Origin: a virus
Virus record (IMG/VR): IMGVR_UViG_3300026094_000032
Span: 1 to 27,355 of that record
DNA: 27,355 nt
Direction: 5' to 3' (one strand)
Below the pieces are notes generated by a model, which saw only the letters and a program-made list of their open reading frames with translations, was not told the DNA's origin and searched no databases. A program made the position numbers and the translations under genes. The stretch's first letter is position 1; every line of letters starts with the position of its first letter. Positions 4,927-27,355 of this stretch are shown here, in pieces.

Positions 4927-4935
4927 TGTTATCTC

Positions 4936-9037: not shown

Positions 9038-9038
9038 A

Positions 9039-9674
9039 TTATACAAAACTCCTTTGAGGTAAGGAATTAGCTCTCATAGTTTTATAAACTAAAGTTGCAC
9101 GTAATCCTTTATAATTTTTGTTAGGCGGAAAACCGTGATGGGGGATATTACCTTTGAACAAAAATACTCGGCCAGGTTTGGGATAAACTTTTTTCCACTC
9201 TCCGTCGAGCTTAATTACGGTTTCTCCGCCCCATTCTTCTTTCCACTCTCTATTTACATAATAAATCCAGCTAATACCGTTATCACATTGACAATCAGTG
9301 TGTTCAATAGTATTATGAATCCATTGTTGACCATTAACTAATATTTCTCCAACTTCAAGTTCAAACGGAATCATTGTAGCAATAGCAGCATATATCATAC
9401 TCCAAGCACTGTCGTTCGCATTTCCACTATGCGGAGGATAAATTTGTTGTTTGAAAGCAGGAACCTCTGGCCATGATAGGTCTGCACCTATGTCATGCGT
9501 CGGGTCGTCAGGATAATTACTAGTGTGTCCGTAGAACCAATTGTATCCACTAAAAACTGTGCTATGCACATGTTCAATCATCCACTGCGGGAAAAGATCG
9601 TCTATTACTATCATCTGATCTACAGTTAGGTCGAAGCCTCTTAGATCGGCTGCCGGTTTTCCATTAATTAACAT
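9039..9674 (-). CDS. 2OG-Fe(II) oxygenase superfamily protein
   Basis: A 211-residue protein with H125-T-D127 in NTIEHTDCQC, distal H179/H180 in GNIPHHGF, and R192 in GLRATLVYK, the complete set for an Fe(II)/2OG dioxygenase. The strand GISWIYYVNREW and the segment WGGETVIKLDGEW match the prolyl-hydroxylase-like phage group. It starts directly after the carbamoyltransferase stop (TAAATG) with GGAG six bases upstream. It is the first of five oxygenases transcribed after the carbamoyltransferase and before the SGNH gene. The triad makes activity likely, but the substrate cannot be read. Confidence 0.87.
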   Translation of the reverse strand: MLINGKPAADLRGFDLTVDQMIVIDDLFPQWMIEHVHSTVFSGYNWFYGHTSNYPDDPTHDIGADLSWPEVPAFKQQIYPPHSGNANDSAWSMIYAAIATMIPFELEVGEILVNGQQWIHNTIEHTDCQCDNGISWIYYVNREWKEEWGGETVIKLDGEWKKVYPKPGRVFLFKGNIPHHGFPPNKNYKGLRATLVYKTMRANSLPQRSFV

Positions 9675-11492: not shown

Positions 11493-11493
11493 G

Positions 11494-12537
11494 TTATTTT
11501 TCTCCAAAGCGTTTTATGATAGTATTTCCTGGAATAAGGTTACCTTTAGGTGACTGTGTTGATGATTGATTAGGCAATGAATGTAATTCTTTTTTGTTTG
11601 CTGTGCCAAGGCGTGTACGTACACTTTTTAAAATCATGTCGATTTGATTTTGATCAAGTTCCATTACTTCGTCGTTAATTCTGTCTTGTTCTTCTTCCAT
11701 AGTAATTCTTATAGGAGAATAAACTCTTGATCCATCACCTACATCAATAATATCAAATTTATCATCATCAGGATAAGAAATATTTACAGGATAAGTTGAC
11801 CCGGTAACAATTGTAGCTGTTTTTCCTAATGCTTTAACAATATGCTGACCTAAACTATCGCATCCTAAAAAATGATCTGCAATATCAATAATTCCTGACC
11901 AAATTCTCATGTCTGGAATTTCGGGCTGTGCTACAGGATGTTTAGGGTTAGGATTATCGTCAACAACTACAGGATGCTCACTCATTATAATAATGCCATA
12001 CTCTGTTTTAAGTTTGTTAATTATATCAATAATATTGTTTAATTGAAAACTTCTAGATGTTGCATCTATTAAAAAATCGCCCATATTTTCGACAGTTCTA
12101 CCAAACGGCTGTACAACTAGAACTTTATCAAAACCAGTAACTGATTTAACTTCTTCTACAACATTTGCTGCGCTAACGACTTCCTGCTTGTTTAGTACTA
12201 TTGTTGGCTTATCTAGATTGCGAATTCCCTTTTTGTTAATTTCTATATCAAATGCTTGTGACAAACTACATTTTTGATTATAGTATTCCCAAACACGATA
12301 CGGCTCCGGACTTACACAATTTCTGTCTTTGATTTTTTCTTCGAATAATCCTTTGTGCCAGTTATCGTAAACTCTTGTTGAGAGTGTTGGATGTCCTTTA
12401 AAAAAATCTGTGCCGCCTTCGCACACAATAATAAAATCATCGTCTGGATTTTCTTTTTGAAATAATTCGAAAGCGGGAATAGAAGCAATTACTCTTCCTG
12501 CACCGCCGTTAATAAAAAATGTTGTTGATCTCGACAA
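11494..12537 (-). CDS. GT9-like glycosyltransferase (heptosyltransferase superfamily)
   Basis: A 347-residue GT-B type protein. The N-terminus FINGGAGRVIASIPAFE matches the first loop of GT9/ADP-heptose transferases, and GCDSLGQHIVKALGKTA matches their C-terminal DSGxxH nucleotide-sugar motif, with Leu-Gly in place of Gly. Family members transfer heptose or related sugars to LPS core or to other acceptors. The acceptor here is not evident. The reading frame is open to a GTG at 12570, but that codon lies between the -35 and -10 hexamers of a promoter. TTG 12537 has AGGAGT six bases upstream and gives the expected N-terminus, so I take TTG. The last 50 residues are polar and low in complexity (NQSSTQSPKGN). 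It is the first gene of the modification operon. Confidence 0.8.
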   Translation of the reverse strand: MSRSTTFFINGGAGRVIASIPAFELFQKENPDDDFIIVCEGGTDFFKGHPTLSTRVYDNWHKGLFEEKIKDRNCVSPEPYRVWEYYNQKCSLSQAFDIEINKKGIRNLDKPTIVLNKQEVVSAANVVEEVKSVTGFDKVLVVQPFGRTVENMGDFLIDATSRSFQLNNIIDIINKLKTEYGIIIMSEHPVVVDDNPNPKHPVAQPEIPDMRIWSGIIDIADHFLGCDSLGQHIVKALGKTATIVTGSTYPVNISYPDDDKFDIIDVGDGSRVYSPIRITMEEEQDRINDEVMELDQNQIDMILKSVRTRLGTANKKELHSLPNQSSTQSPKGNLIPGNTIIKRFGEK

Positions 12538-12558
12538 AATATTACTCCTATATAATGT

Positions 12559-12587
12559 ATAATATAGCACCGTATAACTTTTTACAA
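12559..12587 (-). promoter_or_regulatory. Sigma70-type promoter of the modification operon
   Basis: On the minus strand TTGTAA (12587-12582) and TATTAT (12564-12559) lie exactly 17 bases apart. The ribosome site AGGAGT (12549-12544) and TTG start (12537) follow, implying a leader of only about 15 bases. The match is good at both hexamers, though the region is AT-rich. Confidence 0.6.
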
Positions 12588-12660: not shown

Positions 12661-13374
12661 TTACATTACGATTGCGTCGGGATCGTCTGGGCCTTCTTCG
12701 CTTGCAGGATCGATTGGCTCCATGTTGTATGCAATCCAGGCCGGAACATCGTTAGATTCCATGATGTTAGGCCAATCTCTCAAACGCTGTCTATAATCTA
12801 ACCACTTGTTTCTTAGATCTTGTGGCATATCGTCAGTCATTTCGCTATCACTGTTTTTTAACAGTTGTTTTCTTTTTGCTCTAACATCATCCCATGTGGG
12901 CAATCTGTCGCCTGCTCCCATAACTGCCCAGGGGATAGATCTTGCCTGTACTGTAATGTTGTCTTTGCTATCAATGTGTATAGTTTCAGGATCGTATATA
13001 TCTAGTGGGGTTAAAGGAACTTGATAAGTGAAGTTGTTGTATCCTGGGATATCTATACTACCTGGAGGATACACAGCATCAGTGTACTCTTCGTCAGCTT
13101 CGTCAATGATTGGTCCTCTAAGTTCACATATCAACGGATTGGAGATACAATCTACTTCAACATATCTACAACCTTTGGGTAGAGGTCTACCGTCTGCTTT
13201 TTCAAGTTCAGTTATAGGTCCTAGATGCTCTTTACCTGTATCGTTTTCAACAATTAAAAACAATTTATCCGGACCATCATAGATACAGGTTCTTGTTTTA
13301 CCGTCAGTAAAACTGTGATCAATCATATATTCATTGGGCAAATTACATGTCCATTCAAATTCAACCATTGCCAT
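12661..13374 (-). CDS. Tail-assembly-chaperone-like protein
   Basis: A 237-residue protein. The C-terminal region (residues 160-202) has TWDDVRAKRKQLL, then NSDSEM, then KWLDYRQRLRDWP. This is the RxxLLxxSD...WxxYRQxLRDxP pattern of phage tail assembly chaperones (Phage_tail_APC, PF16778) and related fibre-assembly proteins. The first 150 residues are unfamiliar and rich in acidic and aromatic residues, with four cysteines. It may bind a fibre or contribute to the virion. It sits directly after the three cysteine-rich adhesins, the usual place for a fibre-assembly factor. The ATG at 13374 has AAGGAG ten bases upstream. A second ATG two codons on is equally possible. A perfect late box (13396-13403) precedes it and a hairpin follows it. 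Confidence 0.72.
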   Translation of the reverse strand: MAMVEFEWTCNLPNEYMIDHSFTDGKTRTCIYDGPDKLFLIVENDTGKEHLGPITELEKADGRPLPKGCRYVEVDCISNPLICELRGPIIDEADEEYTDAVYPPGSIDIPGYNNFTYQVPLTPLDIYDPETIHIDSKDNITVQARSIPWAVMGAGDRLPTWDDVRAKRKQLLKNSDSEMTDDMPQDLRNKWLDYRQRLRDWPNIMESNDVPAWIAYNMEPIDPASEEGPDDPDAIVM

Positions 13375-13404: not shown

Positions 13405-14217
13405 TTAAAAAAATGTTAATTTAACTACTCCGCCGCCGCCGGTGCCGCCTTGACCGCAACAACGACCGCAGTAATTAGAGTTTGCGCTTTGTCCGCCGGC
13501 GCCATAAGGCACAATCCAACAACCACAACGTATCCAACAGTAATTAGAATTCTGCTCGTAGTAATTGTCACTTAAATTCGGTGAACCTGTTGAATGTCCA
13601 ATATGCTTCCAGCAATGACAAGCACCGCCTGGATACAGGTATGATGATTGGCCTTGAAAGTTGCCGCCGTGTGTGTAACTGGCCCAATCGCCACTTGCAC
13701 TGGTTCCTACACAGCCCGGTCGAACACAGTAAGGCATAGTTGAATAGCACTGATCAGTCCACGATCCGTTTGTACAACCTCGCTGACCTCCACATGCACA
13801 TAGACCGCTTAGGTTAAATCCGTTTACATATGAAGTACAGCCGTTACAGCCGTTGCATGCACGAGATAAGCATCTGTAAACACCTGCTGCACATACCGTA
13901 TATTGACAGCCGGGATTGGTAGTTATGCTCTTTGATGTATATGCGCCACCACCGGGCGGTCCTGTGTGTTGACACCTTCTACAACTGCAAGCGCCGGCGC
14001 CGTTTCCGCCAGCACCCCAAAGTTCCCAGTTCAATCGCCTAGTGTTATCGGGCACTGTCCAAAGACAGCAGCAGCCCGGTGAACATCTACAACTAATTCC
14101 ATAAAACCATTTGACGCAAAAATTTTCTCTTACTCCGTCGGCAAGATTGTCATAATCAAGTAGATCGTCTGTTAATTGATCTGCAGTAATTTTTCTGTAA
14201 CTTGAATACGATGCCAT
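13405..14217 (-). CDS. Cysteine-rich, glycine-rich adhesin-like protein, copy 3
   Basis: A 270-residue protein with about 29 cysteines. The first 35 residues form a short polar stalk like those at fibre N-termini. Then come CRCSPGCCC, WELWGAGGNGAG (a glycine-rich collar found in phage adhesins), CSCRRC, CQYTVCAAGVYRCLSRAC, YVNGFNLSGLCACGG, a variable stretch, RCGCWIVPYGAGG and GQGGTGGGGVVKLTF. Conserved blocks alternate with one variable region (about residues 145-225), as expected for a receptor-binding tip. A cytoplasmic protein with this many cysteines probably binds metal or forms disulfides after release. ATG 14217 has AAGGAG five bases upstream. It is the longest and last of three paralogues, and its stop is followed at once by a late promoter. 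Confidence 0.85.
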   Translation of the reverse strand: MASYSSYRKITADQLTDDLLDYDNLADGVRENFCVKWFYGISCRCSPGCCCLWTVPDNTRRLNWELWGAGGNGAGACSCRRCQHTGPPGGGAYTSKSITTNPGCQYTVCAAGVYRCLSRACNGCNGCTSYVNGFNLSGLCACGGQRGCTNGSWTDQCYSTMPYCVRPGCVGTSASGDWASYTHGGNFQGQSSYLYPGGACHCWKHIGHSTGSPNLSDNYYEQNSNYCWIRCGCWIVPYGAGGQSANSNYCGRCCGQGGTGGGGVVKLTFF

Positions 14218-14226
14218 TTTGGCTCC

Positions 14227-15009
14227 TTAGATATATAATACTTTTACTAGGCCGCCGCCGCCTGTGCCGCCTTGTCCACAACAATCGCTATTGCAATATG
14301 TGTTCATTGCACTTTGACCGCCTGTTCCGTATGGTACACTCCAGCATCCGCACTTTATATAGCATTGTCTCAAGCCCTGTGTTGAACCGCCGCCGATTCT
14401 CATTGCCTGTCCTTGGTGTATTTCCTGTGGGTGACAATGACAGTATCCACTTGCTGTAGAAAATGCCTGCGTGTGTCCGCCTATAGCAAAATCACTGCCA
14501 GATTGTCCTGGAGAATAACAATAATAATTTGTAGCGAAACATCCTGTCGACCAAGAAGTATTTGCTTCGGCACGGTGTCCGCCGCACGCACAATAACCTG
14601 ATAAATTAAATCCGTTTACATACGAACTACAGCCATAACAACCTGTACACGCACGAGATAAGCATCTGTAAACACCTGCTGCACATACAGTATATTGACA
14701 GCCGGGATTGGTTGCTATTGTTTTGGAAGTGTAACCTCCGCCTCCTGCAGCTCTGAAGTGATGACACCTTCTACAAGTGCAAGAGCCGGCGCCGTTTCCG
14801 CCAGCACCCCAAAGTTCCCATGTAAGCCTTTTTACCTGCGGTGGTACTTCCCATCGGCAACAGCACCCGGATGAACATCTACACGGTACGCCAAAAAACC
14901 ACTTAACACCAAAATTATTTAAAGTGTTCTGATCAATCATATTATCGTCGATAACACTATCTGGTATCTGTGATCCGCTAACTTTTTTGTAACTTGAGTA
15001 ATTTGCCAT
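14227..15009 (-). CDS. Cysteine-rich, glycine-rich adhesin-like protein, copy 2
   Basis: A 260-residue paralogue with about 26 cysteines. It keeps every conserved block: CRCSSGCCC, WELWGAGGNGAG, CTCRRCHH, CQYTVCAAGVYRCLSRAC, YVNGFNLSGYCACGG, KCGCWSVPYGTGG, and CCGQGGTGGGG at the end. Its central variable segment (about residues 145-210) differs in sequence from both sisters and is His- and Gly-rich (GYCHCHPQEIHQG). The stalk (SGSQIPDSVIDDNMIDQNT) also differs. The start ATG lies exactly 792 bases from that of each sister. The upstream ribosome site is AGGATT, weaker than that of copy 3. It lies 12 bases after copy 1 and 9 before copy 3, so all three are co-transcribed. Virion location is inferred. 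Confidence 0.85.
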   Translation of the reverse strand: MANYSSYKKVSGSQIPDSVIDDNMIDQNTLNNFGVKWFFGVPCRCSSGCCCRWEVPPQVKRLTWELWGAGGNGAGSCTCRRCHHFRAAGGGGYTSKTIATNPGCQYTVCAAGVYRCLSRACTGCYGCSSYVNGFNLSGYCACGGHRAEANTSWSTGCFATNYYCYSPGQSGSDFAIGGHTQAFSTASGYCHCHPQEIHQGQAMRIGGGSTQGLRQCYIKCGCWSVPYGTGGQSAMNTYCNSDCCGQGGTGGGGLVKVLYI

Positions 15010-15021
15010 TCTCTAATCCTG

Positions 15022-15801
15022 TTATGCAAATGTAATTTTGACTACACCGGGGCCGCCCGTGCCACCTTGACTACAACAGTCACTACCACAATAACTGCTC
15101 ATCGCTCCTTGACCGCCGTGTCCTGGAGGTGCGATCCAACAACCGCACCTCGAGTAACACACGGCAAGCGCCATAGCAACGTTGCCTCCTAAGAAAGGTG
15201 CTCCTGTGGGTCTAACATACTGATGGTGACAATGGCAGTTAAAAATACCACTAAAGTGGCCGCTGTGGCTATTCATTCCAAAGTCGCCGTTGTTATCATT
15301 CGGCTGTAAACAACAGGTCCAGCAACTATAACAATACTGAGTCCAGTCTGTATTGGCTCGTCCACAGCCGCCGCCCACAGCGCAAAAGTCTGATAAACCA
15401 AATCCGTTTACATATGAACTGCATCCGGTACACCCTATACACTCACGAGATAAGCATCTGTAAACACCTGCTGCACACATGGTATATTGACAACCTGGAG
15501 AAGTTGAAATCATCTTAGAATTATATGCTCCGCCGCCGGCACCTGCGTAGTGATGACACCTTCGACAACTGCAAGCGCCGGCGCCGTTTCCGCCAGCACC
15601 CCATAATTCAAAAAATACACGTCTAGTACATCCAGGAACAGTCCATTGGCAACAGCAACCTGCAGAGCAACGACAGGCGTTGCCTATTAGCCATTTTGTA
15701 CACAAATTATGTCTAGTGTCGGCTGCAAGTTTATTTTCTGAAACTGTGCCGTCTATTACTTGTCCCTTTACTATTTTTTTATAACTCGAATATGATGACA
15801 T
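15022..15801 (-). CDS. Cysteine-rich, glycine-rich adhesin-like protein, copy 1
   Basis: A 259-residue paralogue with about 30 cysteines, including the local cluster YCYSCWTCC in its variable region, absent from the sisters. Conserved blocks are CRCSAGCCC, FELWGAGGNGAG, CSCRRCHH, CQYTMCAAGVYRCLSREC, YVNGFGLSDFCAVGG, RCGCWIAPPGHGG and CCSQGGTGGPGVVKITF. The ribosome site is poor (GAG within GGCAGAG). It follows the 238-residue fibre-type gene by 15 bases and is the first of the three. Proteins of this make-up occur in marine T4-like phages as unnamed Gly/Cys-rich proteins to my knowledge. The receptor-binding role is inferred from the collar motif, tandem copies and position. Confidence 0.85.
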   Translation of the reverse strand: MSSYSSYKKIVKGQVIDGTVSENKLAADTRHNLCTKWLIGNACRCSAGCCCQWTVPGCTRRVFFELWGAGGNGAGACSCRRCHHYAGAGGGAYNSKMISTSPGCQYTMCAAGVYRCLSRECIGCTGCSSYVNGFGLSDFCAVGGGCGRANTDWTQYCYSCWTCCLQPNDNNGDFGMNSHSGHFSGIFNCHCHHQYVRPTGAPFLGGNVAMALAVCYSRCGCWIAPPGHGGQGAMSSYCGSDCCSQGGTGGPGVVKITFA

Positions 15802-15816
15802 TTATACTCTGCCTTA

Positions 15817-16533
15817 TTAGATTGATAAGATTCGCCACCCGGCACTAGCATTATAATAAACTAGAGAAAATGCGGCGCCTTCTGTATTTACTACTAGGTC
15901 TTCTGAATCTCCCATTATGTTACTGCCGTTTCTACCTACGGTAAGAGCATTGGTATCAAACGTATTGTCGACATCAAAGAATCTTACTTCGTCACCTTTT
16001 GCAGGAGATCCTGGTAAATCGACTGTAACTGATCCGCTTGATGTGCTTACCCAATTTGTTTGAAACGGTAAAGTACTTCTGTTAGAACTTACATCTACAT
16101 CTTGGAATCCCGAAACCTGCCATTTAGAACCAGTGTAAACTTCAAGTAAATCATAATCAGTGTTAAATCTTACAAAACCTGCACTGGCGCCGCCTGGTCT
16201 ATTTGCGGTGTTGCCGCTTGGTATGGTAATGTGTGTGGAAGTAGTTCCAAATCCAGTCGAATCTTCTATTGTGCCTCCAGAAACAAGATCTCCTCCTGAA
16301 TTTAAATCACCAGCGATGCCAATGCCACCGCTTATTACCAAAGAACCCGTCGAAGTGCTGTTGCTTGTAGTAGTGTTTGATATTTCAAAAGGTGCATCTG
16401 TGGTTACCTTACCTGTGCCGTCTGGATCTAATATGAGATTAGCATTAGGCACAATTCCCTGCACTATGTTGTCACGAGCAAACAAATTACCCAGTAATGG
16501 TCTTCCTGTTACACCTGTTGATATTTTACGCAT
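15817..16533 (-). CDS. Tail-fibre-type virion protein
   Basis: A 238-residue protein of low complexity in its first half: LILDPDGTGKVTTDAPFEI, then STSTGSLVISGGIGIAGDL, a module repeated in many marine phage fibres. The middle has RPGGASAGFVRFNTD followed by LLEVYTGSKWQVSG, the beta-strand collar segment typical of fibre proteins. The C-terminal hundred residues (DVDVSSNRSTLPF to WRILSI) form a beta-rich domain that recurs as a fibre end. ATG 16533 has AAGGA eight bases upstream. It lies between a small virion-type gene and the cysteine-rich array, so it probably belongs to the same distal-tail structure. Confidence 0.8.
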   Translation of the reverse strand: MRKISTGVTGRPLLGNLFARDNIVQGIVPNANLILDPDGTGKVTTDAPFEISNTTTSNSTSTGSLVISGGIGIAGDLNSGGDLVSGGTIEDSTGFGTTSTHITIPSGNTANRPGGASAGFVRFNTDYDLLEVYTGSKWQVSGFQDVDVSSNRSTLPFQTNWVSTSSGSVTVDLPGSPAKGDEVRFFDVDNTFDTNALTVGRNGSNIMGDSEDLVVNTEGAAFSLVYYNASAGWRILSI

Positions 16534-16544
16534 TTTTTTATTCC

Positions 16545-16868
16545 TTAGGAAGTTTCTGTCTCTAAGCCGTAAACCACTGCTGTAACTGCTGTACTATTAG
16601 ACCTTACAAAAACATTATATCCTGCCTGTAATACAACCCCTGTTCTTTCTAGTGTTCCGTTGCCGAGCAGCTCTGTATCGTATTCAATATAATCTGCGTC
16701 TGCAGGAGCAGCTTGGTCTGTAAGCGCTATGCGTACAGATCTTGTTTCCGCATTCCTGTTGGTAACACTTATGGTTACTACAGAAAAAGTAGCTTCAGGC
16801 ACAGTATAAACTAGATCATCAGTGCCGGCTCCGAGTGCTTGTCTTCCTAAAACTCCGTTAATTGCCAT
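16545..16868 (-). CDS. Small virion-type beta protein
   Basis: A 107-residue beta-rich protein: LGRQALGAGTDDLVYTVP, then FSVVTISVTNRNAETRSVRIAL, then DYIEYDTELLGNGTLERTG and AGYNVFVRSNSTAVTAVVYG. This pattern (a short lead, a two-sheet sandwich and a final GxE) recurs as a small structural protein near fibre genes in many marine phages. Its precise place in the virion is not known to me. The start has GGAGAT eight bases upstream and lies 15 bases after the giant gene. No cysteines, signal peptide or membrane segment are present. Confidence 0.75.
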   Translation of the reverse strand: MAINGVLGRQALGAGTDDLVYTVPEATFSVVTISVTNRNAETRSVRIALTDQAAPADADYIEYDTELLGNGTLERTGVVLQAGYNVFVRSNSTAVTAVVYGLETETS

Positions 16869-16883
16869 TGTTTTTAATCTCCA

Positions 16884-19800
16884 TTATCTCAAGTAGTAAT
16901 TGAAAGCTAGCGGTTGTCCGAGGACTGCACCTTCAAATTTTACGTTTGCTCGTATATTTATCTGTTCGCCCGACACAGTAGTAATCTGATTAGTGTTAAT
17001 AAACACATCGCCGGCCGTTACAGAGTTAACATTTAGACTGGCGCCGCCGCCGCCGATCTGTGCTTCAATGAATGCTTTAACTGCTCGCTGTGTAGGAACA
17101 ACGTTATCAGAGTTCGCAGTAAAGAACGGATCTGTTGAGAACTCGCTGATTGCTGCGGAGTTTCCGCCTAGTGTAACCTCACCTAGTGATAGTTCCTGTA
17201 AGCCTGCAATGTTAAATGCTTCTGCATCAAGTGTGGCAACGCCAGTAGCCTGTTCTATTGAGAACAGATTACCTACTCTGAAGTTACCATCTTGGTCTGT
17301 GGCTGTAAAGAACACCCTGCCGCCGTCGAACTCATTGGTTTCTTTATTGGCGTCTGGAGCATTTACAGGTATTCCAGGATAATTAGTATCAACAAAGTTA
17401 CCAGTACCAATATCAAGGAAATCATGACTGGATGCACGTACCTGACTGTATCTTATTCTTAGTGTCACTCCGTCGCCGTCCTGAGGAGCATCTGTTATGC
17501 TCATTTCAGGTGATAGCTGCAAGAATGCTGTAAATGAACCTGGATTTTCACCTATAAATGACACCGTATTAACCAGTTTGAATACCTGTCCAGGCAAACT
17601 ATCAAACACAATGTTTGAACCATTTACTGGTCTTGCAGAAAGCTGTTTTACAGCAACAAAGCTGCCGTCCTGGAAGAAATCAGCAAAACCGTTTGAGTTT
17701 GTGTCGTTAATTTCTGCAGATGCAGTAGTAAAGGAAGATCCTCTAGCAACAAATGTTGGATTAGCAATTGAACCGTTACCTAGTCTAACTGCAAGCTCTA
17801 CAGGCTCAATATTGTTAGGATCAAATATCGAAATTTCAGGGGCAGTATCATAGTTACTGCCAGGCTCTTTTAAACGTACTTGGAATAACTGTTCGTTTGC
17901 TACACCTGATCTACCTTGAGCTCTTGCACCTATTTCTGCAACAGAAACTGTGGTTGTAGGAGCGCTTGCACCAACAACCAAGAACTGATGATTGAGATTA
18001 GGATTACCATGAGCAACTGCGTTATAACCAGCAGCTTCTGCTCCTAGGGTAAATAGCTCCCAAAGAACGCCGTCTTCTGAATAAGCAATAGAATTGTCGT
18101 CTCTAGTTGCGACAAAGATGCCTTGTCCATATGATAGCTGACTATATACTCCTCCTGTCGGAAGACTGGTTTCGAACCATTCAATGCCATCTATTGAATA
18201 CACAGCAACATTAGTATCATCGGCTATAGCAACAAATCTGCCATTGCCCCATTCTACATCTATCCATGCAGCAGTTGTACCGATTGTAGCAGTTGTCCAT
18301 GTTAAACCGCCGTCTTCGGAATAATAGGCGTTCTCACTTCCTCCTTGCAGTGCCATAAACCTACCTTTACCATGAGTAAGAGCAGTAACGCCTGTAGCTG
18401 GTAATACACCTGACTGAATAGTCCAGCTAGCACCGCCATCTGTTGAAGTGCTAACGTCGGTTGCTGTAGAATTGGTAATCAAAAATTTGTTATCGCCCGG
18501 CGAAGGTTGTCCGAACGCAATTTTGATTGTGCCTGATCCTATTCCGCTGTCAGCTGATTCAAATGTTTCAGCGTCCGAAGAATAGTTTACAGTTCCGTCT
18601 GCAGCAGCAATTACCAATGCAGATGGCTTAAGTAAACTCGAACCGTCGTCTAAAAGACCGCTTGCTGAATCAACCCAACTGGCTGAAGTAGCTAGTGTAG
18701 TAGAAGAATAGTTTAAACCTTCTGTGCTCACCTGTGCTGTGCTGCCACTAGACGGAGTAATAACAAATACACCCTTCTGTGCTAAACCATCAAAATTAAA
18801 ATCTATAACAGATCCGTTTGTTTTGTTGATAGTTGTAATTGTTACCGTAATATCATTGAGAGGACTTGTGCCTCCTAACAAATCACCTGATATCGTAACA
18901 GTATCTAATCTATTATACCCTTCGCCGGCGTTGTTAAGAGTCACATAGTATTTTGAACCCACTCTTGTTACGTCAAAGCTTGCTTGCTCTCCGTCTGAGT
19001 TTGTAGTAGTTGCAACAGCATTATATTGGGCTGCAGTTTCAAAATAGTCTGCAGTAGAATATGTACCTGAAGTAATAGACTCTACTGTTGCAGTCTTAGC
19101 AGGCGCAGTAAAGAATGCTCTCGGCTCTACTTGATAAGTAGAACTTGAGTTAGGAGAACTTATAGGCGTGCCTGGCACAATGTGTTCCCAGCCAAGCTCC
19201 ATTTCAATTGCAGTGCCTGTTCCTGATCCTGCACCTGTCGCAGTGAATATAGTTCCCGGTCTAGGATTAATAAGAGTTTCGTCACTGATACTATCCCAAT
19301 CTGTATCTCCTGCATCTTCAATTCTGTAGATTGTTGAGGTAGTAAAACTTCCTGCTGCAGTTGGAGTATAAGTAGTTGGTCTTACAACCTCTGCTTCTTT
19401 TGAACCCGAATCATAGGTATATACAGTGCCGTATAGTCCGGTAGCAGCACCTGCAGTTACATATACTGACATTCCTGGATAGGCAGAACTTAGATTTCCG
19501 TCAGTAGCAGCAAGGAATATACTAGTAAGACTTCCTGTTTGAGCTGTGTTAGAAATAAGCGTGAATCCACTTCCGCCTGCAGTATCAGGCTCAGTCTCTA
19601 CTATTCTTACCTGTTTGACTGCTCCGTCTCTAAACTCGTCTGCAAGTAACTCTTCACTGTCACCGGAACCAAATATGTCAATTGCAGCTTCTGTGTATCT
19701 ATCACCAGCATGTCCGAATTCTAACTGCAGAATTTGATCTTGATCAGTGAATACGTTTTCTACAGTAGCATTAAACTGTGTTCTATTATCTACAACGGCA

Positions 19801-22800
19801 GTTACTGGCGTTTCTTCTGGATCGACACCTTCTGCAGAGGAGCCAAATGTTCCATATGAATTGTTGCCGTTTGTAGCACGAATTCTTCCGCCTGCTTCTG
19901 CTAGGTAACCCACATGCGAATAATAAGTGAATACAGATACTAGCTCCGCTCTACCGTTGTTTGTGATCCATGCTCCGATGCCGTCTGATATTACCTGTGT
20001 GAAGTCGTTGGAAACAATGGAATCGTTGCCGCCATTATGCAGAGAACCATCAATCTTTTGACCCACAGCAGCAAATCCAAATGTAGATACGTTCTGAACA
20101 TAAGGAGAACGAGCTGTAATATGCACTCTAGTATCGTCCGGACCAAAGCCTGGATCAAGCGATGCATAAGCACCTGCAGTAGGTCTGCTAGTTCCAAATT
20201 CATTGGCTGGTTTAAGATCACCTTTCAACCCGTCCAGCGACATCAGTCTAAGTCCAGTACCGTTTCTAAGATAGAAGAAGTCTTCTTCCTGAGAACCTAT
20301 TACTGAATTGTAGTAGTATCTGCCTGCTAGTTTAGATTTATAAAAACCAGGTCTATATATTGTAACGCCTTCTGTGTATTTTCTTTCCCACTGTTTTGGC
20401 TGTACAAGATCCCATTCAATAGCATTAATGTATTCTCTAAGATCTCTTGCACATATCTCTTCGTCGTACTCGAAATCAGCGCTGACATTTAAAATAAACG
20501 AATATTGTCTATCAAGATATCTCGCAGTTTGAATAGCAATTCCGTCTTCGTTTTCCAGTAAGCTGCGCTGTGCCTTTTGAAGATTTTCATCTGCCCAGGT
20601 CGCTATAGGATATTCTACATCTCCAAGAACAATTAAGTTAAGAGTATTAGCTACATCTCTTGGTATGTCGAGTAAAGTTTCTGCTTTAGTGGCTTCTGCA
20701 GAAGTTGCAGGCGTTCCTGAGAAGTCTTGTGATACTGCAACTTGTAATTCTGTTACATCTGTTTCTACAATTATTTCTTGAATGATTGTTTTTATATAAT
20801 CAAGAGCATCTACTAATGCAGTTTGTTCTGTAGAACCGTCTGTTAGATTACCTTCTTCTGTGTAAATTCTTGCAATTTGTCTAGTAGCACTGTTGCCGCC
20901 ATACATTATATCATATCTTATTGCATCAATAAAATACCCTAGTTCTTCGCTTCTTTGAGCATCGTCGTAAGTTAGTGCTGCATAATTTTGATCAATATAT
21001 GCAATAAATTCTGCTTGCAAGAAGCTTCGATTATTTGTTAGCTGATCCACAGCATTCTGTTGGTCGGTTGTAGAAAGGTCACCTGGAGGTATACTGAGTG
21101 AGTCAGCACTCGCATCTCCGTTTTCTACAATATCTAACACTTCGTTGAATATTGCATTAACTCTTGATAATGCATTTACATCTAGTTTTACAGCTCTTAT
21201 ATCAGTTGCTAATATCTTACTAAAGCCAATACCGTCTAGTGTTTCTGATAGCTGAGTTGCTACGTCTGTACCTGCTGTTCCTCTTCTTACAGCTAATCCT
21301 CTAGTAACAGCATTGTAGTTTGTGTTAAGAACAGCATCCCAACTCGAACCTTCTATAATTAATTGTGTTTCTCTTCTAAAAGATTTTTTATTATAGTCGA
21401 AGGCAGATTGCTGGGGAGTGAGTTCTTCTTCAGTGCCGCCTATAACAGTAGATATTGTAAACGTGTTTTCATCTATAATATCTTTTACAAAATAATTCGC
21501 ACCGTCTTGCAGACCAAAGTCAAAAAGCGTAGATATAGAAGTATTTCTACGAACACTAAATTTAATAGGCATGTTTGCTGTAAGCCAACTTGTGTCTGCT
21601 ATAACTATTGTATTCGTTCCGACTTCTGATACTGCTACATCAAAAAACCATTCATCAACATATGCTTTTGCTTCTTGAACTATAAATTCTTTATTCAATT
21701 CTAGCTGACGCACTGCGTTGTAATTTTCAACAAAATCGACACTACTAACGTTTCCTTCTGAGGATGCGGACCAAATTATATCGTTTACGTATTCCCACGT
21801 AGCATTAACAGTGATTATTGCATCTACTACTCCGTTTACGTTGTTCTTTATTAAGCGGCGGGCATATTCGTTCGCTGCTAGTGTAGCATCTTTCTGCTCC
21901 CCTAACACTTTTTTAGATTCTGCTCTAAGATACGAATATGCTGCTAAAATACCGGCATAATTAGTATCTAGCATCCAATCGTATCTAGAAGCTTCAGCAA
22001 TTAATTCAAGATCGCGTGAACACTTAGCATGATTATATACAAAACCTGAATATTCGTTTGATACAAACTGTATGGCATCTACTACAATAGTATCTGCATT
22101 TGTATCAATAGTGCTCTTGGCAGTCTGAAATTCTGCATCTGCCCAAGTAGTGTCAGGGAATGATATACTCGGAACACCTGTCAGACTTTCGGCTGTTAGT
22201 GCATCCTGTATGATGTCAATATTAAGTTCAATCTGTCCGGCTTCGGTTGCAGTAGCCGGAGAACCTAGTGTGGTCTGTATTTCTGTATTTCCTGACTGTT
22301 CGGCGACGTCCTGTTCCTGAATTACTTCTTTTGTTATATCGCTAAGGTGTTGGTAAGCATCGACTATGTTTGCAATTTCTCCGTTCCAAACAGTTGTATC
22401 TTGAAAGAAGTAAGATTGTAGTAATTTTGTAGCTGCCTGTGTGCCTTGATAAAGAACATCATAGCTGAGAGTTTGTAGTAGATACTCTAGCTCTCTTCTA
22501 TAAAGATCTGCATCATATTCAAATTCGAACCATTTACTTGCTGGATCTGGGCTGTTGACCGTGTTTAACTGAATTTGATTATCAATGTATGCAATTGTAT
22601 CGGCTATTATAAAATCAATGTTTGCTTGAATAAGATTCTTTGCATCTACCCTATCTTGATCAACGCCTGTAGGAGTAGGGTACAAAAGAGTAGGTCTAGA
22701 ATCTCTACCTTTTCTAATAATATCAACTATATTGTTAAAAGAATCGATTGCACGAGTAGTTGCTGTTGTAGAACTAACAAGACCTGCAACTTCGTCGCGC

Positions 22801-24041
22801 ATAAATCTTATTGCACCGACAATAGCAGCTTGATCTGTTTTAAGTATCTCTCTATTATACGCTTTGTCATATACTAACCCGTTTGCAAAACCGTTATAGT
22901 TTGTACCTAGTGCTACATCAAACGCAATGTCTTCTAGAATATTTGCAAAGTCGTCTCTATACTTTGCACTGTCAAAAGTAAATGTACCAAAGTTTTCATT
23001 TATAAAATCAATTGTTTTTTCTTGTATCTCAGGCAGTGCTGCTACTAGAGCATCACTAGCTGCAACTTCTGCGTCAGGTGATTCTACAGTTGAAGGGTAT
23101 GTAATTGCAACAGTGCCAGAACCAGTATCTATAATGGCAATTATATCATTCATTAGTTCAGCTATAACGTCCGAAACTGTCTGAGTACCGCCTGTTCCAG
23201 AAATTTGATCTACGTCAGTTTGAAACACTGGTGTGACTGTTATGTTTCTACCTACAGTCTGTACAAGTGCTTTAAGGTAAGTCAGCGCATCTAGTGTAGC
23301 CTGTTTATCATTTGATCCTATGCCAAAATCTACGCCGTCAAAATAAGCTTCACCTCCATTTACACTCTGCCAATTGCCACCGTAGGTAAGATCATATGCT
23401 ACAGAATCAATTACAAATCCTATATCTTTTTTGGCTTTTGTTCTGCTGTATCTTATACTTGGATATTCTTCTGCGAGATAGGCAATTACTTCTGCTTGTA
23501 TAAACTCTTTGTTGTGAAGGTTGAGGTCTCTACTGTATCCAAAGTTAGGATCATCAAGATCATATGCAGGAGTTAGTTTTGCATCAATTTTGTTTCCAAG
23601 TTCTACATCTATAGTTTTCTTTATATTTCTTGCCAGTCTTGCTGCTTCCGGCGCTACCTGGGGAGCTTCTGCATAAGGCCATGAATCGATCTGAGCAACT
23701 GTGTTTCCAGGAGTAGTTCTGAAGGGAACTCCTTCAACTACATCTCCGATTACATCTTCGATTCTTTCAATCGCAAGAGAGCTGTACTTAAAGTCACTCT
23801 TAGAAGTCAATGTGCTGTTAGATTCTTTTCTTGGCTGAACGTTTGTAGAACGTAGCTCGTCGCCTAATATACAGCATTCTGCTGGCACTATAATCGGCAA
23901 TACCTCTCTATACTGTCCAGTAGATACTTTAATAAGTGTCTTTCTAATCGATCTAGCAGGAACTGCTTCGTCGGTACCGGCTGTAACTGCGTCTGTTACT
24001 ATTTTTCCTAGACTTTCGATTGTCTCAAATATCGTTGCCAT
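16884..24041 (-). CDS. Giant virion structural protein (2385 residues)
   Basis: The largest gene of the window, probably a baseplate or tail-fibre-associated protein. Residues 30-70 (TLIKVSTGQYREVLP, then GDELRSTNV) look like the first turns of a beta-helix. Residues 170-1225 hold seven divergent helical repeats of about 150-165 residues, each with a pattern like C-x-RD-x4-IDA-x2-YD-x3-GGN. An extra beta insert lies between the fourth and fifth. Residues 1225-1800 are beta-rich and fibre-like. Residues 1810-2030 hold Asp-box repeats of a beta-propeller. The last 230 residues carry RYSQVRASSHDFLDIGTGNF, TDQDGNFRVGNLF and NVVPTQRAVKAFIE, and are paralogous to the end of the protein encoded at 26051-27355. 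A strong GGAGGA nine bases before ATG 24041 supports this start. Confidence 0.88.
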   Translation of the reverse strand: MATIFETIESLGKIVTDAVTAGTDEAVPARSIRKTLIKVSTGQYREVLPIIVPAECCILGDELRSTNVQPRKESNSTLTSKSDFKYSSLAIERIEDVIGDVVEGVPFRTTPGNTVAQIDSWPYAEAPQVAPEAARLARNIKKTIDVELGNKIDAKLTPAYDLDDPNFGYSRDLNLHNKEFIQAEVIAYLAEEYPSIRYSRTKAKKDIGFVIDSVAYDLTYGGNWQSVNGGEAYFDGVDFGIGSNDKQATLDALTYLKALVQTVGRNITVTPVFQTDVDQISGTGGTQTVSDVIAELMNDIIAIIDTGSGTVAITYPSTVESPDAEVAASDALVAALPEIQEKTIDFINENFGTFTFDSAKYRDDFANILEDIAFDVALGTNYNGFANGLVYDKAYNREILKTDQAAIVGAIRFMRDEVAGLVSSTTATTRAIDSFNNIVDIIRKGRDSRPTLLYPTPTGVDQDRVDAKNLIQANIDFIIADTIAYIDNQIQLNTVNSPDPASKWFEFEYDADLYRRELEYLLQTLSYDVLYQGTQAATKLLQSYFFQDTTVWNGEIANIVDAYQHLSDITKEVIQEQDVAEQSGNTEIQTTLGSPATATEAGQIELNIDIIQDALTAESLTGVPSISFPDTTWADAEFQTAKSTIDTNADTIVVDAIQFVSNEYSGFVYNHAKCSRDLELIAEASRYDWMLDTNYAGILAAYSYLRAESKKVLGEQKDATLAANEYARRLIKNNVNGVVDAIITVNATWEYVNDIIWSASSEGNVSSVDFVENYNAVRQLELNKEFIVQEAKAYVDEWFFDVAVSEVGTNTIVIADTSWLTANMPIKFSVRRNTSISTLFDFGLQDGANYFVKDIIDENTFTISTVIGGTEEELTPQQSAFDYNKKSFRRETQLIIEGSSWDAVLNTNYNAVTRGLAVRRGTAGTDVATQLSETLDGIGFSKILATDIRAVKLDVNALSRVNAIFNEVLDIVENGDASADSLSIPPGDLSTTDQQNAVDQLTNNRSFLQAEFIAYIDQNYAALTYDDAQRSEELGYFIDAIRYDIMYGGNSATRQIARIYTEEGNLTDGSTEQTALVDALDYIKTIIQEIIVETDVTELQVAVSQDFSGTPATSAEATKAETLLDIPRDVANTLNLIVLGDVEYPIATWADENLQKAQRSLLENEDGIAIQTARYLDRQYSFILNVSADFEYDEEICARDLREYINAIEWDLVQPKQWERKYTEGVTIYRPGFYKSKLAGRYYYNSVIGSQEEDFFYLRNGTGLRLMSLDGLKGDLKPANEFGTSRPTAGAYASLDPGFGPDDTRVHITARSPYVQNVSTFGFAAVGQKIDGSLHNGGNDSIVSNDFTQVISDGIGAWITNNGRAELVSVFTYYSHVGYLAEAGGRIRATNGNNSYGTFGSSAEGVDPEETPVTAVVDNRTQFNATVENVFTDQDQILQLEFGHAGDRYTEAAIDIFGSGDSEELLADEFRDGAVKQVRIVETEPDTAGGSGFTLISNTAQTGSLTSIFLAATDGNLSSAYPGMSVYVTAGAATGLYGTVYTYDSGSKEAEVVRPTTYTPTAAGSFTTSTIYRIEDAGDTDWDSISDETLINPRPGTIFTATGAGSGTGTAIEMELGWEHIVPGTPISSPNSSSTYQVEPRAFFTAPAKTATVESITSGTYSTADYFETAAQYNAVATTTNSDGEQASFDVTRVGSKYYVTLNNAGEGYNRLDTVTISGDLLGGTSPLNDITVTITTINKTNGSVIDFNFDGLAQKGVFVITPSSGSTAQVSTEGLNYSSTTLATSASWVDSASGLLDDGSSLLKPSALVIAAADGTVNYSSDAETFESADSGIGSGTIKIAFGQPSPGDNKFLITNSTATDVSTSTDGGASWTIQSGVLPATGVTALTHGKGRFMALQGGSENAYYSEDGGLTWTTATIGTTAAWIDVEWGNGRFVAIADDTNVAVYSIDGIEWFETSLPTGGVYSQLSYGQGIFVATRDDNSIAYSEDGVLWELFTLGAEAAGYNAVAHGNPNLNHQFLVVGASAPTTTVSVAEIGARAQGRSGVANEQLFQVRLKEPGSNYDTAPEISIFDPNNIEPVELAVRLGNGSIANPTFVARGSSFTTASAEINDTNSNGFADFFQDGSFVAVKQLSARPVNGSNIVFDSLPGQVFKLVNTVSFIGENPGSFTAFLQLSPEMSITDAPQDGDGVTLRIRYSQVRASSHDFLDIGTGNFVDTNYPGIPVNAPDANKETNEFDGGRVFFTATDQDGNFRVGNLFSIEQATGVATLDAEAFNIAGLQELSLGEVTLGGNSAAISEFSTDPFFTANSDNVVPTQRAVKAFIEAQIGGGGASLNVNSVTAGDVFINTNQITTVSGEQINIRANVKFEGAVLGQPLAFNYYLR
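17950..18610 (-). repeat. Asp-box beta-propeller repeats inside the giant protein
   Basis: Four clear Asp-boxes at about 40-residue spacing: STDGGASW (residue ~1866), SEDGGLTW (~1907), SIDGIEWF (~1948) and SEDGVLWE (~1987), preceded by a degenerate SSDAETFE (~1825). Between them, strands of the type GRFMALQG, GRFVAIAD and GIFVATRD repeat. This is the BNR/sialidase-type propeller signature, but the catalytic Arg triad and Tyr/Glu of sialidases are not evident. Confidence 0.75.
20370..23450 (-). repeat. Seven divergent helical repeats in the giant protein
   Basis: Copies centre near residues 210, 375, 525, 690, 900, 1045 and 1210. Examples are KKDIGFVIDSVAYDLTYGGN, SRDLELIAEASRYDW and RSEELGYFIDAIRYDIMYGG. 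Each is preceded by a segment like NKEFIxxExxAYxxxxF. The identity is low but the motif order is constant. An eighth copy lies in the neighbouring 656-residue protein. Confidence 0.75.
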
Positions 24042-24044
24042 CTT

Positions 24045-26015
24045 TTAGTATCCTCCTATACCGCCGCCGGTGAATCCTGATGATCCTGTACTGCTGCCCG
24101 AAGCAATCCCGCCTGTGGTACTGCCTGTAATTGTGCTGTCGTAATCAACATTATCTTGTCTTCCATATTCTGGTATAAAATATTGTTCTACAATACGTGT
24201 AGAATTGTCGCCATTTAGAACCTGATACAATTCTTCAGGCTCTGTCTGTGCTAGAACATTCTGTATTAAAGTAAGTCCATAATTAATGCTAGCCACTGTT
24301 TCTTGTTTTTGGTTTTGATAGTCTGAATTTTCTGGAGCATTTACATATGCTAGAGCAGCTTCACGGGAGCGAACATTACCGCCGTGCTGCAAATCCCATA
24401 TAAAGGCATCAACTAGAAAGCCCATGTCTCTTTCACATTTTACAGTGTCGTAGTCAAAGCTTGATGTAAAAGGAGCAATAACATTATCAATTTGATATTC
24501 AGTCCATTCTACAATTTCTCTCTGAATAAAACGTCTATTAAGTCGCAGCAACTCTGCTGCCTTTGGTTCTTTTGTACCCTGCTCTACCTGTTGAGCAGCA
24601 TATCTAATTGATTTCCAAGGTCTATCTATATTTTTTCCGTATATAGGAGCCGGCTCGTCCTTGCCGGATTCTGCAACGTAATATACATCTGCCGAGTCGC
24701 CTATGAATGCCCATTCTGGTATTCCTTCTGCAGAAACAGAAAGAATCTGGCCATTCTCACCTATAGGCAGTCTCTGAGGACCACCAGTGGAGAAATATAC
24801 CAAATCGCCTACTTCAGTAAGAACACTCTGTTCTGTGCCTACTGCTATGATATTCCAATATGTGCCATCATCAAAGTCAGGTCTAGAGCTAGCAGCGCCG
24901 GAGCTTTCTGAAGAAAAATCGTCGCCTTCTGATATGTGATTTTGAACAGCAACATAGGAGTTGTCGCCAAATCGCACTACATCGCCTTCAAAATATTCTT
25001 GATCATCGAGCCAAGCGCCACGCCAGTTCAGTCCAGTGTTTAGTCTTTCCCAAAACTCTGCGTTAGGCGGCTGTTGGTTTTCGCTGTCTTTTATTGCTCT
25101 GTAGTTGTATCCGCCTAGTCTTACTACATCGCCTACCTGGTATCCTGTGAGAGAAGAATCTTCATTCCAGTCTCCTCTGAATCTTAGACCTTCACTGAAT
25201 AGGCTCCAGTTTTCTGTCGATGTAGATGGTATTGCATTAGAATTATCTAACAGTGCTATAAACTGGTTACCGCCATAATTTACAACGTCGCCTGGCTGAT
25301 AATTTTTGAAAGGAGACCATTCTGCTTCGTACTGAAAGCCTTCTACAAACTTGGTCCATTTTTCAGAATCTGCTCCGAAATCTTCCTGTGATGCATGGGG
25401 TGTGTTTGCTATCCAAAGACTAGCACCAAATTTTACAACATCATTCAGTTTGTATCGTATGGGATAATCCCAGTCTCCCTTGAAATCAAATCCCTGGTTA
25501 AACGGAGTCCATTTTTCAATGTCTTCTTCTAAGCCCAGTTCCTCTGTAGGAGCAGATATGTGAGGCGTATTGACTACATAGGTAGAACCACCATATTTTA
25601 CAAAATCATTAATTTTGTAATCAAAAGAAGTTTGCCAGTCACCTTTCCATTCAAGGCCTTCAGCATATATTTCCCACTTATCCAGATCTGCTTCTAGTCC
25701 CGTAGAAGAATCCTCTGCAGAAATATGTCCTTCTTTTGCAATGTAGAGTCTTGCGCCGTACTTGACAATGTTTTCTACTTGATATTCTTGTTGTGGTTGC
25801 CAGTTGCCTAGCCAGGTTTGGCCGTCAGCTACTATGTTCCATTTAGCAGGAATAGCAGTAAGATCGATATTGAAATCTTCTGCGCTTGTGTGTCCTATAA
25901 CACAGATGTACACTTTACCGTTAAAGGAAACTACATCATCTTTGTAATAAACAGTACCAGCTATCCATTCGTTTTTCCAAACAAATCTAAGCCTACCTAG
26001 TTTAAATTCAGCCAT
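24045..26015 (-). CDS. Virion protein with seven CBM5/12-like repeats
   Basis: A 656-residue protein. Residues 16-392 hold seven tandem modules of about 52-55 residues with the pattern Y-x2-GDVV-x-YGG-x2-Y-x-A-x3-HIS ... W-x5-G-x2-W-x-GDW, resembling carbohydrate-binding module family 5/12 (chitin-binding type 3). Residues near 400-440 form a short beta linker. VYYVAESGKDE and DRPWKSIRYAAQQV (about 445-475) start a beta-helix-like segment. A helical unit with KCERDMGFLVDAFIWD follows (~545), and the protein ends in a Gly/Ser tail (TGSSGFTGGGIGGY). A late box (26034-26041) and GGAGT six bases before ATG 26015 give a clear start. Glycan binding at the baseplate is inferred from the repeat type. 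Confidence 0.85.
   Translation of the reverse strand: MAEFKLGRLRFVWKNEWIAGTVYYKDDVVSFNGKVYICVIGHTSAEDFNIDLTAIPAKWNIVADGQTWLGNWQPQQEYQVENIVKYGARLYIAKEGHISAEDSSTGLEADLDKWEIYAEGLEWKGDWQTSFDYKINDFVKYGGSTYVVNTPHISAPTEELGLEEDIEKWTPFNQGFDFKGDWDYPIRYKLNDVVKFGASLWIANTPHASQEDFGADSEKWTKFVEGFQYEAEWSPFKNYQPGDVVNYGGNQFIALLDNSNAIPSTSTENWSLFSEGLRFRGDWNEDSSLTGYQVGDVVRLGGYNYRAIKDSENQQPPNAEFWERLNTGLNWRGAWLDDQEYFEGDVVRFGDNSYVAVQNHISEGDDFSSESSGAASSRPDFDDGTYWNIIAVGTEQSVLTEVGDLVYFSTGGPQRLPIGENGQILSVSAEGIPEWAFIGDSADVYYVAESGKDEPAPIYGKNIDRPWKSIRYAAQQVEQGTKEPKAAELLRLNRRFIQREIVEWTEYQIDNVIAPFTSSFDYDTVKCERDMGFLVDAFIWDLQHGGNVRSREAALAYVNAPENSDYQNQKQETVASINYGLTLIQNVLAQTEPEELYQVLNGDNSTRIVEQYFIPEYGRQDNVDYDSTITGSTTGGIASGSSTGSSGFTGGGIGGY
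24051..24056 (-). promoter_or_regulatory. Strong ribosome site GGAGGA for the giant gene
   Basis: GGAGGA lies inside the last codons of the 656-residue gene, nine bases before ATG 24041. Only three bases separate the upstream stop (24045-24047) from that ATG. The site fixes the start of the giant protein and shows that the junction is a true two-gene boundary. Confidence 0.75.
24840..25970 (-). repeat. Seven tandem CBM5/12-like modules
   Basis: Modules begin near residues 16, 72, 126, 182, 232, 283 and 334 of the 656-residue protein. Conserved positions include the module-final Trp in KGDW/RGDW, the GDVV strand, and the YGG/FGA turn. The copies are divergent at DNA level, so the expansion is old. 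Confidence 0.8.
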
Positions 26016-26050: not shown

Positions 26051-27355
26051 TTATTGCATCGTATCGCTGGCATCATTTCTAAAAAATAAATTCTGTCCTA
26101 CGATAGTTCCCTGTATCTGTGTTCTGTTACCATTCGGATCCTCTCCGCTAAAATCAACATCTCTTGGGAATCTTAGATATTCTCCTGAAGATGTTTCAAT
26201 CACATTGTCAGATCCTCCTATTCTAGTTCTACCTGCTGTAATCTGGTTGGTTTCAAGATTTTCACCACCAACGGACAGCCTGTCTGCTAGGAATGTTGCA
26301 ATTGCTCGTTGAGTGGGCACAATGTTGTTAGAATCAGCTGAGAACGTAGGATCAGTTGAGAATTCATTAATTACCGAGCCCGAACCACCTAATCTAATGC
26401 CGCCTAGAGCAAGTTCAGAGAGTCCGTCAAGGTCAAAGAATTCTGCTGATATAGTAACAATACCAGTTGCCTGATCTACTCCGAACAATTCACCTACCCT
26501 AAAGTTGCCGTCTTGATCAGTAGATGTGTAAAATACTCTACCGCCGTTTAGCTCGGAAACTTCATTTTCTGGTGCTGCTCGGAAGAAATTGCCGCCTGCA
26601 TATATTGCAGGATAATTTGTTTCTTCAAAGTTACCAGTTCCGATGTCAAGAAAATCGTGACTGGATATTCTGCACTGACTGTACCTAGATTGTAATCTTG
26701 CTATAGTGCCATGTGCAAGGTTAAATTCATTTTCTAGTCCTGGCGTAATTGTAAATCTTACAAGGCGTGTTCCTCTACGAGTACCGTCGTCGCCTAGATC
26801 CTCGATTTCTACACCAACAAATAGCGCAAGGTCCTCAGGATCAGGTGTATCAGGATCTAATATGCCATTAATAATAATCTGCACACCCGGTCCAGGCACT
26901 ACATTAACTCCGGAAACTGTAATTATGTTATCTTCAGGTATAATGTCTGCAAAGCCGTTACCAGTAATAGTAATGTTAGAGCTTGAACTTCTATAACCTG
27001 CGCCTCTATCAATAAAGTCTGGCTGAGGAAGAACGCCGCTGCTCTGTCTTACATCAATTTCAACTTCGGTGACAAAATTAGGATCAGTAACAGTAATTTC
27101 ACAAGGACTATTGGTAGTATAAGCTGCACCCGGATCCCATATTTTAACAACGGTGAATATACCAGTAAAAACATCTGCTCTAAATTTAGCCTGTCTTCCG
27201 GCATTCACATTTACAATAGCATCAGTAGTAATACCGTCTGCTAGTAATACCCATTTTCCTGTTGCTCCTATAGAAGCATAACCTGCTGAGGACCATCTTT
27301 TTGATACCACAAGATCTCTTTCCTGCCAACTAATACCATATTCTGTAGTATACGC
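26051..27355 (-). CDS. C-terminal part of a large virion protein (5' end outside window)
   Basis: The frame is open through the right edge of the window, so at least 434 residues of a longer protein are present. An internal GTG at 27310 is not a convincing start, as coding-like sequence (YGISWQERDLVVSKRW) continues upstream. The first part is beta-rich (GATGKWVLLADG, SSSNITITGNGFADI). The last 230 residues carry RYSQCRISSHDFLDIGTGNF, TDQDGNFRVGELF, SEFFDLDGLSEL-type strands and NIVPTQRAIATFLADRL, in the same order as the end of the giant protein. Such ends are found in several large virion proteins of marine T4-like phages as I recall. It lies upstream of the late box at 26034-26041 and precedes the 656-residue gene by 35 bases. 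Confidence 0.8.
   Translation of the reverse strand, partial: AYTTEYGISWQERDLVVSKRWSSAGYASIGATGKWVLLADGITTDAIVNVNAGRQAKFRADVFTGIFTVVKIWDPGAAYTTNSPCEITVTDPNFVTEVEIDVRQSSGVLPQPDFIDRGAGYRSSSSNITITGNGFADIIPEDNIITVSGVNVVPGPGVQIIINGILDPDTPDPEDLALFVGVEIEDLGDDGTRRGTRLVRFTITPGLENEFNLAHGTIARLQSRYSQCRISSHDFLDIGTGNFEETNYPAIYAGGNFFRAAPENEVSELNGGRVFYTSTDQDGNFRVGELFGVDQATGIVTISAEFFDLDGLSELALGGIRLGGSGSVINEFSTDPTFSADSNNIVPTQRAIATFLADRLSVGGENLETNQITAGRTRIGGSDNVIETSSGEYLRFPRDVDFSGEDPNGNRTQIQGTIVGQNLFFRNDASDTMQ

Follow-up and report, generated by a model that had tools for sequence, protein, structure and literature searches.

Gene content of the locus

The window, that is, the whole 27,355-nucleotide stretch of viral DNA analyzed here (positions 1 to 27,355 of the IMG/VR virus record IMGVR_UViG_3300026094_000032), carries three tandem cysteine-rich genes, c1 to c3, beside a series of tail-fiber genes (Table 1). 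The original prediction, made from the letters of the sequence, of three tandem paralogs with 26 to 30 cysteines each was borne out by the open reading frames, c2 and c3 being 53% and 58% identical to c1. The richness in cysteine is peculiar to these genes, as the products of the 18 other minus-strand genes examined contain 0 to 2.1%. CxC, CxxC, and CCC motifs are present in the cysteine-rich copies. Between copies, the anticipated pattern of a conserved glycine-rich stretch and C terminus with a single variable middle segment was also found, the differences lying at about residues 151 to 210. The first residues of the N-terminal arm (N-arm) are similar in the three copies.

The starts of c1 and c2 and those of c2 and c3 both lie 792 bases apart, and the linkers, 12 and 9 bases long, offset the coding lengths of 780 and 783 bases, as had been described. 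The meaning attached to this exact spacing did not hold. Among the 19 dereplicated loci of the clade that includes the window, 4 have equal steps, versus 9.7% expected from independently drawn steps, and the steps are unequal in other clades (800/805 in S-SSM7 and 795/821 in Sf-FS3). Near-equal steps arise because the three paralogs have nearly the same length and short linkers. We therefore rejected the spacing as a functional feature; judged from these comparisons, its exactness is a coincidence. The triplet itself is not.

Table 1. Features of the window
Feature	Position	Strand	Product	Evidence
Copy 1 (c1)	15022..15801	-	259 aa, 30 Cys	full-length PHROG 4205 match, E 4.1e-52
c1, N-arm	15694-15801
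c1, core	15352-15693
c1, tip segment	15172-15351
c1, C-terminal part	to 15025
Copy 2 (c2)	14227..15009	-	260 aa, 26 Cys	full-length PHROG 4205 match, E 1.5e-46
Copy 3 (c3)	13405..14217	-	270 aa, 29 Cys	full-length PHROG 4205 match, E 6.5e-50
Tail-fiber assembly chaperone-like protein	12661..13374	-	237 aa	PF16778 Phage_tail_APC, 31.6 bits (cutoff 26.6)
Fiber C-terminal module	15817..16533	-		blastp 47-48% identity; tail PHROG matches
Small tail-fiber-associated protein	16545..16868	-	107 aa	phrog_11338 tail fiber, E 2.2e-8
Giant fiber-like protein	16884..24041	-	2385 aa, 4 Cys	homology to tail-fiber-like proteins
Tail-fiber protein	24045..26015	-	five CBM5/12 modules	PF02839, E 3.8e-34, 5 stretches; phrog_9851 tail fiber
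Tail-fiber-like protein	26051..27310	-	419 aa	phrog_9851, E 3.8e-45
2OG-Fe(II) oxygenase-like gene cluster, with a DUF6445 gene	3690-9674			five above Pfam cutoff, one (6866-7414) below
HAD phosphatase, carbamoyltransferase, and phrog_8954 gene	4936-5493, 9675-12570
Parvulin-type peptidyl-prolyl isomerase, near the fiber cluster	4268-4597	+		PF00639, E 5e-10

The neighbors of the array are of the tail-fiber type. Residues 102 to 238 of the fiber C-terminal module are homologous to the C terminus of the tail-fiber-like protein of S-SSM7 and Sf-FS3; the module has its own open reading frame in the window and is fused to the fiber in those two phages. Homologs of the small protein next to it are PSSM2_302 and the S-CAM3 gene T040910_098, and those of the giant protein are tail-fiber-like proteins of S-SSM7, Sf-FS3, S-CAM3, and P-SSM2. 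The PF02839 (CBM5/12) family found in a further fiber protein is named after carbohydrate binding. On the other side, a homolog of the chaperone comes after the array wherever a downstream open reading frame was readable (143 of 143; 113 found directly, the remainder by profile search). A sequence search of the chaperone against solved structures returned weak unrelated matches only, and six window proteins matched no NCBIfam family.

Genes with possible sugar-related functions also lie close to the array. In isolate relatives, genes annotated as sugar kinase, nucleotidyltransferase, phosphoheptose isomerase, and epimerase adjoin it, and the relatives of the phrog_8954 gene in P-SSM2 and S-CAM3 gave weak matches to heptosyltransferase family 9 (15.4 and 17.4 bits, cutoff 22). 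Sugar decoration of the fiber or of the host is possible.

Relatives and copy number

All 21 named-phage records matching c1 belong to cyanophages or marine single-cell viruses. PHROG 4205 is a family of unknown function, and the relatives in S-SSM7, S-SSM6a, and Sf-FS3 are annotated as hypothetical. The direct relatives S-SSM7 and Sf-FS3 have three tandem copies flanked by a tail-fiber-like gene on one side and a chaperone-like gene on the other; beyond the chaperone come the phrog_8954 gene and the carbamoyltransferase. This gene order is that of the window, save for one extra gene after the chaperone in Sf-FS3. S-SSM6a, a direct relative within PHROG 4205, has three match places, as does S-CAM1. 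In S-CAM1, S-CAM3, and P-SSM2, the copies occupy an equivalent place in the fiber cluster and share the core. The S-CAM3 and P-SSM2 proteins also hold 24 to 36 cysteines each but are longer (300 to 356 aa), and their identity, about 38%, is confined to the core. S-CAM3 carries three of them (T040910_100 to 102, with 36, 35, and 24 cysteines), and P-SSM2 carries two (PSSM2_304 and PSSM2_306) with another gene between.

Three IMG/VR queries returned 266, 191, and 153 relatives, of which at most 80 per query were sampled by similarity, so that the sample favors sequences close to the queries. A single-protein query from P-SSM2 gave one further relative only, and 3 additional loci came from genome contigs. 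Three arrays (L088, L089, and L090) lie on contigs assigned to genomes of Actinomycetota, Rhodobacteraceae, and Flavobacteriales; these are probably misbinned phage contigs. One locus (L008), 100% identical to the window across 8490 bases, adds no independent information.

Three complete copies were present in 83 of the first 86 loci, the other 3 running into contig ends. Removing 60 duplicate arrays and 13 that touch an end from the total of 221 loci left 148 distinct complete arrays, with three copies in 145, two in 2 (P-SSM2 and L223), and four in a single array (L222, positions 3452 to 7681). Given these two- and four-copy arrays, three copies are a strong rule and not a law. In P-SSM2 (L003, 8837-9514), L223 (7083-7754), and L213 (5333-5986), a gene that resembles the chaperone on visual inspection separates the first cysteine-rich copy from the second, instead of, or besides, one after the array.

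Predicted fold

The AF2 model of c1, obtained with 132 natural rows, reached a pLDDT of 85.1 and a pTM of 0.80. Its best PDB match was the fiber of cyanophage Pam3 (E 6.3e-7), with Z 16.4 over 225 residues for 7ypx and Z 15.8 (rmsd 3.4) over 193 for 7yfw. Lower Z scores were obtained for the Bxb1 tail tip (12.1) and for the TG domains of ALK/LTK (about 8 to 10), and the best matches among predicted viral structures were S-CAM3 and P-SSM2 proteins. The Pam3 fiber gp24 is reported to be trimeric, as is its chaperone, gp25 (PDB 7ypx, 7yfw; PMC9608196). The model thus gives good support to a predicted c1 fold of the TNF-like plus glycine-rich kind seen in the trimeric tail-fiber tip of Pam3. The long N-terminal helical trimerization domain of Pam3 is absent from this model, in which the arm has low confidence (helices of 3 residues only in residues 1 to 33, and a pLDDT of 52 to 70 in the first 30).

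Against the PF21722 (Gly_rich_2) cutoff of 24.3 bits, c1 scored 15.1, and c2 and c3 were unmatched at E 0.1; the relatives SSSM7_114 (24.9), T040910_102 of S-CAM3 (33.9), SSSM7_116 (26.4), and SfFS3_97 (27.1) lie above it. The PF07484 collar domain had no match at E 0.1, no gp38 chain was among the matches listed for the c1 structure searches, and a sequence search of solved structures with the family alignment found no match up to E 1. A joint single-chain model of the three open reading frames read through in frame (12 rows, pLDDT 35.2) bears on neither side. The earlier label of adhesin-like gains support from the fold, from the fiber and chaperone neighbors, and from the synteny in isolates; c1 to c3 are very probably subunits of a tail-fiber tip.

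Evolution by array position

A tree was built from the 141 proteins of 47 dereplicated triples; on it, the array-position label changes 6 times, against a minimum of 2 and a shuffled mean of 66.5. The S-CAM3-type tree (129 rows from 43 triples) also has 6 changes versus 61.3 when shuffled. According to these trees, the copies in each of two divergent subfamilies cluster with others of their array position rather than with those of their own genome. The exceptions in the 141-protein tree, in which c3 of the L054/L058 group nests with c2 and c1 of the L001/L002 group with c3, would fit old conversion. A core tree over both types placed the three copies of type A in one clade (support 100, starred) and those of L213/L218 in another (94), although its information is low, with 28 of 99 branches starred and 20 of 102 rows lacking the trimming motif and entered untrimmed. 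These separate clades imply that sets of three arose more than once or were homogenized within lineages.

Silent sites distinguish the parts of the protein. Comparing the identity at 4-fold sites among the copies of one genome with the expectation from its own codon usage, in 47 genomes, we obtained 0.517 versus 0.413 for the core (43 genomes above expectation), 0.500 versus 0.414 for the C-terminal part (39), 0.479 versus 0.423 for the tip (29), and 0.366 versus 0.410 for the N-arm (16). Since the excess is found in the core and not in the N-arm, the core looks gene-converted and the arm does not. When the nearest row was sought among foreign genomes with less than 65% mean ortholog identity, it came from the same position in 90% of cases for the tip, 61% for residues 9 to 36, 52% for the C-terminal part, and 51% for the core, with 33% expected by chance. 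Consequently, the segment that varies between copies is the most position-bound part of the protein. The dN/dS ratios of close orthologs, which are rough because silent sites are near saturation, were 0.11 to 0.14 for the tip and 0.08 to 0.09 for the core, pointing to purifying selection on the tip segment.

These patterns bear on whether the copies act as alternatives. Three homotrimeric (or gp38-like capping) tips, carried by different fibers or virions, would widen the host range, and this is the reading that the homotrimeric nature of the Pam3 tip with the same fold, the strong differences between tip segments, and the similar first arm residues, as for a common socket, would favor. Such a menu should, however, vary in number and content, whereas nearly every array has exactly three copies, each position keeps its own tip segment from virus to virus, with rates little above those of the core and no sign of diversification, and a single chaperone gene follows the whole set; we regard it as unlikely. 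The original prediction had offered alternative or hetero-oligomeric tips, and the near-fixed number and position-specific orthology favor its second half over its first. It had also stated that it would be contradicted if the conserved and the variable segments evolved at identical rates. Rates among orthologs come close to that, and the contrast between copies is strong.

The fixed c1-c2-c3 order and the position-specific N-arms would also fit three homotrimers stacked serially along one fiber, each as a separate segment. Yet every copy retains the full TNF-like and glycine-rich tip domain, which is reported to be terminal in the Pam3 fiber, and the shared, converted core suggests like-for-like packing, leaving serial stacking improbable.

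Cysteine residues

Fourteen cysteine columns are invariant in the 141 rows. An odd number of cysteines, found in 100 of 210 proteins, implies that not all can pair within a chain and that many chains keep at least one such residue. Invariant cysteines, together with the CxC, CxxC, and CCC motifs and our finding no virion proteomics that places any copy in the virion, might suggest cysteine-rich nonfiber proteins used during infection, for example in metal binding or redox reactions. The fold, the neighbors, and the chaperone are of the tail-fiber type, and this explanation is very improbable.

One exchange of cysteines recurs on the tree. This swap of Cys104 and Cys134, chosen after a screen of all cysteine pairs, is better supported than the other candidates: of 11 independent pairs, about 8 change in opposite directions and not one in the same direction (median p 0.008). 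Their replacement in independent lineages is as expected if one thiol partner may be supplied from two places, and it would fit a disulfide or a metal alike. Other candidates were set aside: the Cys142/Cys163 swap (phi -0.97) is a single event on the tree, and the agreement at Cys243 within genomes (41 all, 6 none) reduces to 2 changes and is weak. Cys34 occurs in c1 and c3 and in none of the 47 c2 proteins; its coupling between c1 and c3 (Fisher p 3.4e-5) shrinks to just 5 independent pairs (2.2 in the same and 0.7 in the opposite direction) and is not significant when relatedness is allowed for. A wide disulfide network is reported for the virion of phage Milano (PMC10811340). The content of about 10% cysteine may reflect disulfides formed late or bound metal, the two options of the original prediction.

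A proposed heterotrimeric fiber tip

The reading that we favor, with a probability of about 0.58, is that c1, c2, and c3 form one heterotrimeric distal tip of the long tail fiber of a marine cyanophage, for which we infer a 1:1:1 stoichiometry. It is favored because a homotrimeric relative, a near-fixed number of three, fixed positions, a converted shared core, and a single chaperone occur together. In this arrangement, the three paralogous TNF-like plus glycine-rich subunits would assemble into a single fiber tip. The position-specific N-arm (about residues 9 to 36) would set the slot of each subunit, presumably by docking to the trimeric fiber or to the fiber C-terminal module, and gene conversion would hold the shared core similar, so that the three chains keep fitting together. 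Each subunit would contribute its own tip segment (about residues 151 to 210), giving one tip with three different faces that may bind receptors. The downstream chaperone would aid the folding and register of the three chains, the part played in Pam3 by gp25 for gp24, which is a homotrimer. Cysteines would staple the loop lattice, through disulfides formed after release into oxic seawater or through bound metal. The C1q heads, which are heterotrimers of three related chains, resemble the proposed tip.

Counting against the heterotrimer are the two copies in P-SSM2 and L223, the four in L222, the lack of Cys34 in c2, the PF21722 results below the cutoff, the choice of loci by similarity, our finding no virion proteomics for any copy, and the long N-terminal helix of Pam3 gp24, which has no counterpart in the low-confidence modeled arm. 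More tentative, at slightly below even odds, is the fuller scenario of an obligate heterotrimer of coevolving paralogs with fixed binding faces and a cysteine-stapled lattice, which would have evolved more than once from a Pam3-like homotrimeric tip and whose core would be maintained by conversion.

Comparison with known systems places the array closest to Pam3 gp24/gp25, with which it shares the TNF-like plus glycine-rich fold, the probable location at the fiber tip, and a dedicated chaperone gene. Pam3 has one gene, a homotrimer, and a long N-terminal helix, whereas the array has three paralogs, about 10% cysteine, a short arm, and separate fiber proteins. In the virophage DSLV2, three consecutive tail proteins are reported to copurify as a 1:1:1 heterotrimer (PMC12724248). 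The array shares the three consecutive tail genes and, if the proposal is right, the 1:1:1 trimer; the DSLV2 proteins are gp37-like collar proteins of another fold, for which the accessible part of that report mentions no cysteine richness. The gp38 adhesins of S16 and PP01 are reported to be single-gene polyglycine-II proteins with a beta-helix domain that sit on a gp37 homotrimer (PMC12892980). They resemble the array in having a glycine-rich lattice with variable loops at the fiber tip and differ in the beta-helix domain, against a TNF-like one here, and in being a single adhesin, against three paralogs.

Searches of the open-access literature gave no report on cysteine-rich cyanophage tail fibers, on cysteine-rich hypothetical tail proteins of Synechococcus phages, or on a heterotrimeric phage tail made from paralogs. 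Among titles and abstract openings on cysteine-rich phage tail fibers with disulfides, none dealt with these proteins. Phage fiber tips described in the papers cited here are homotrimers or single capping adhesins. The Pam3-type tip itself is already known; what would be new, if the heterotrimer holds, is such a tip built from three different fixed subunits.

The proposed tip offers a role for a widespread family annotated as hypothetical, with 266 relatives in one IMG/VR scan, and it raises a question, open to testing, about a virion protein that is so rich in cysteine and is produced inside a reducing cell. If the proposal is true, one fiber would read three surface features at once, which would bear on host choice in marine cyanophages.
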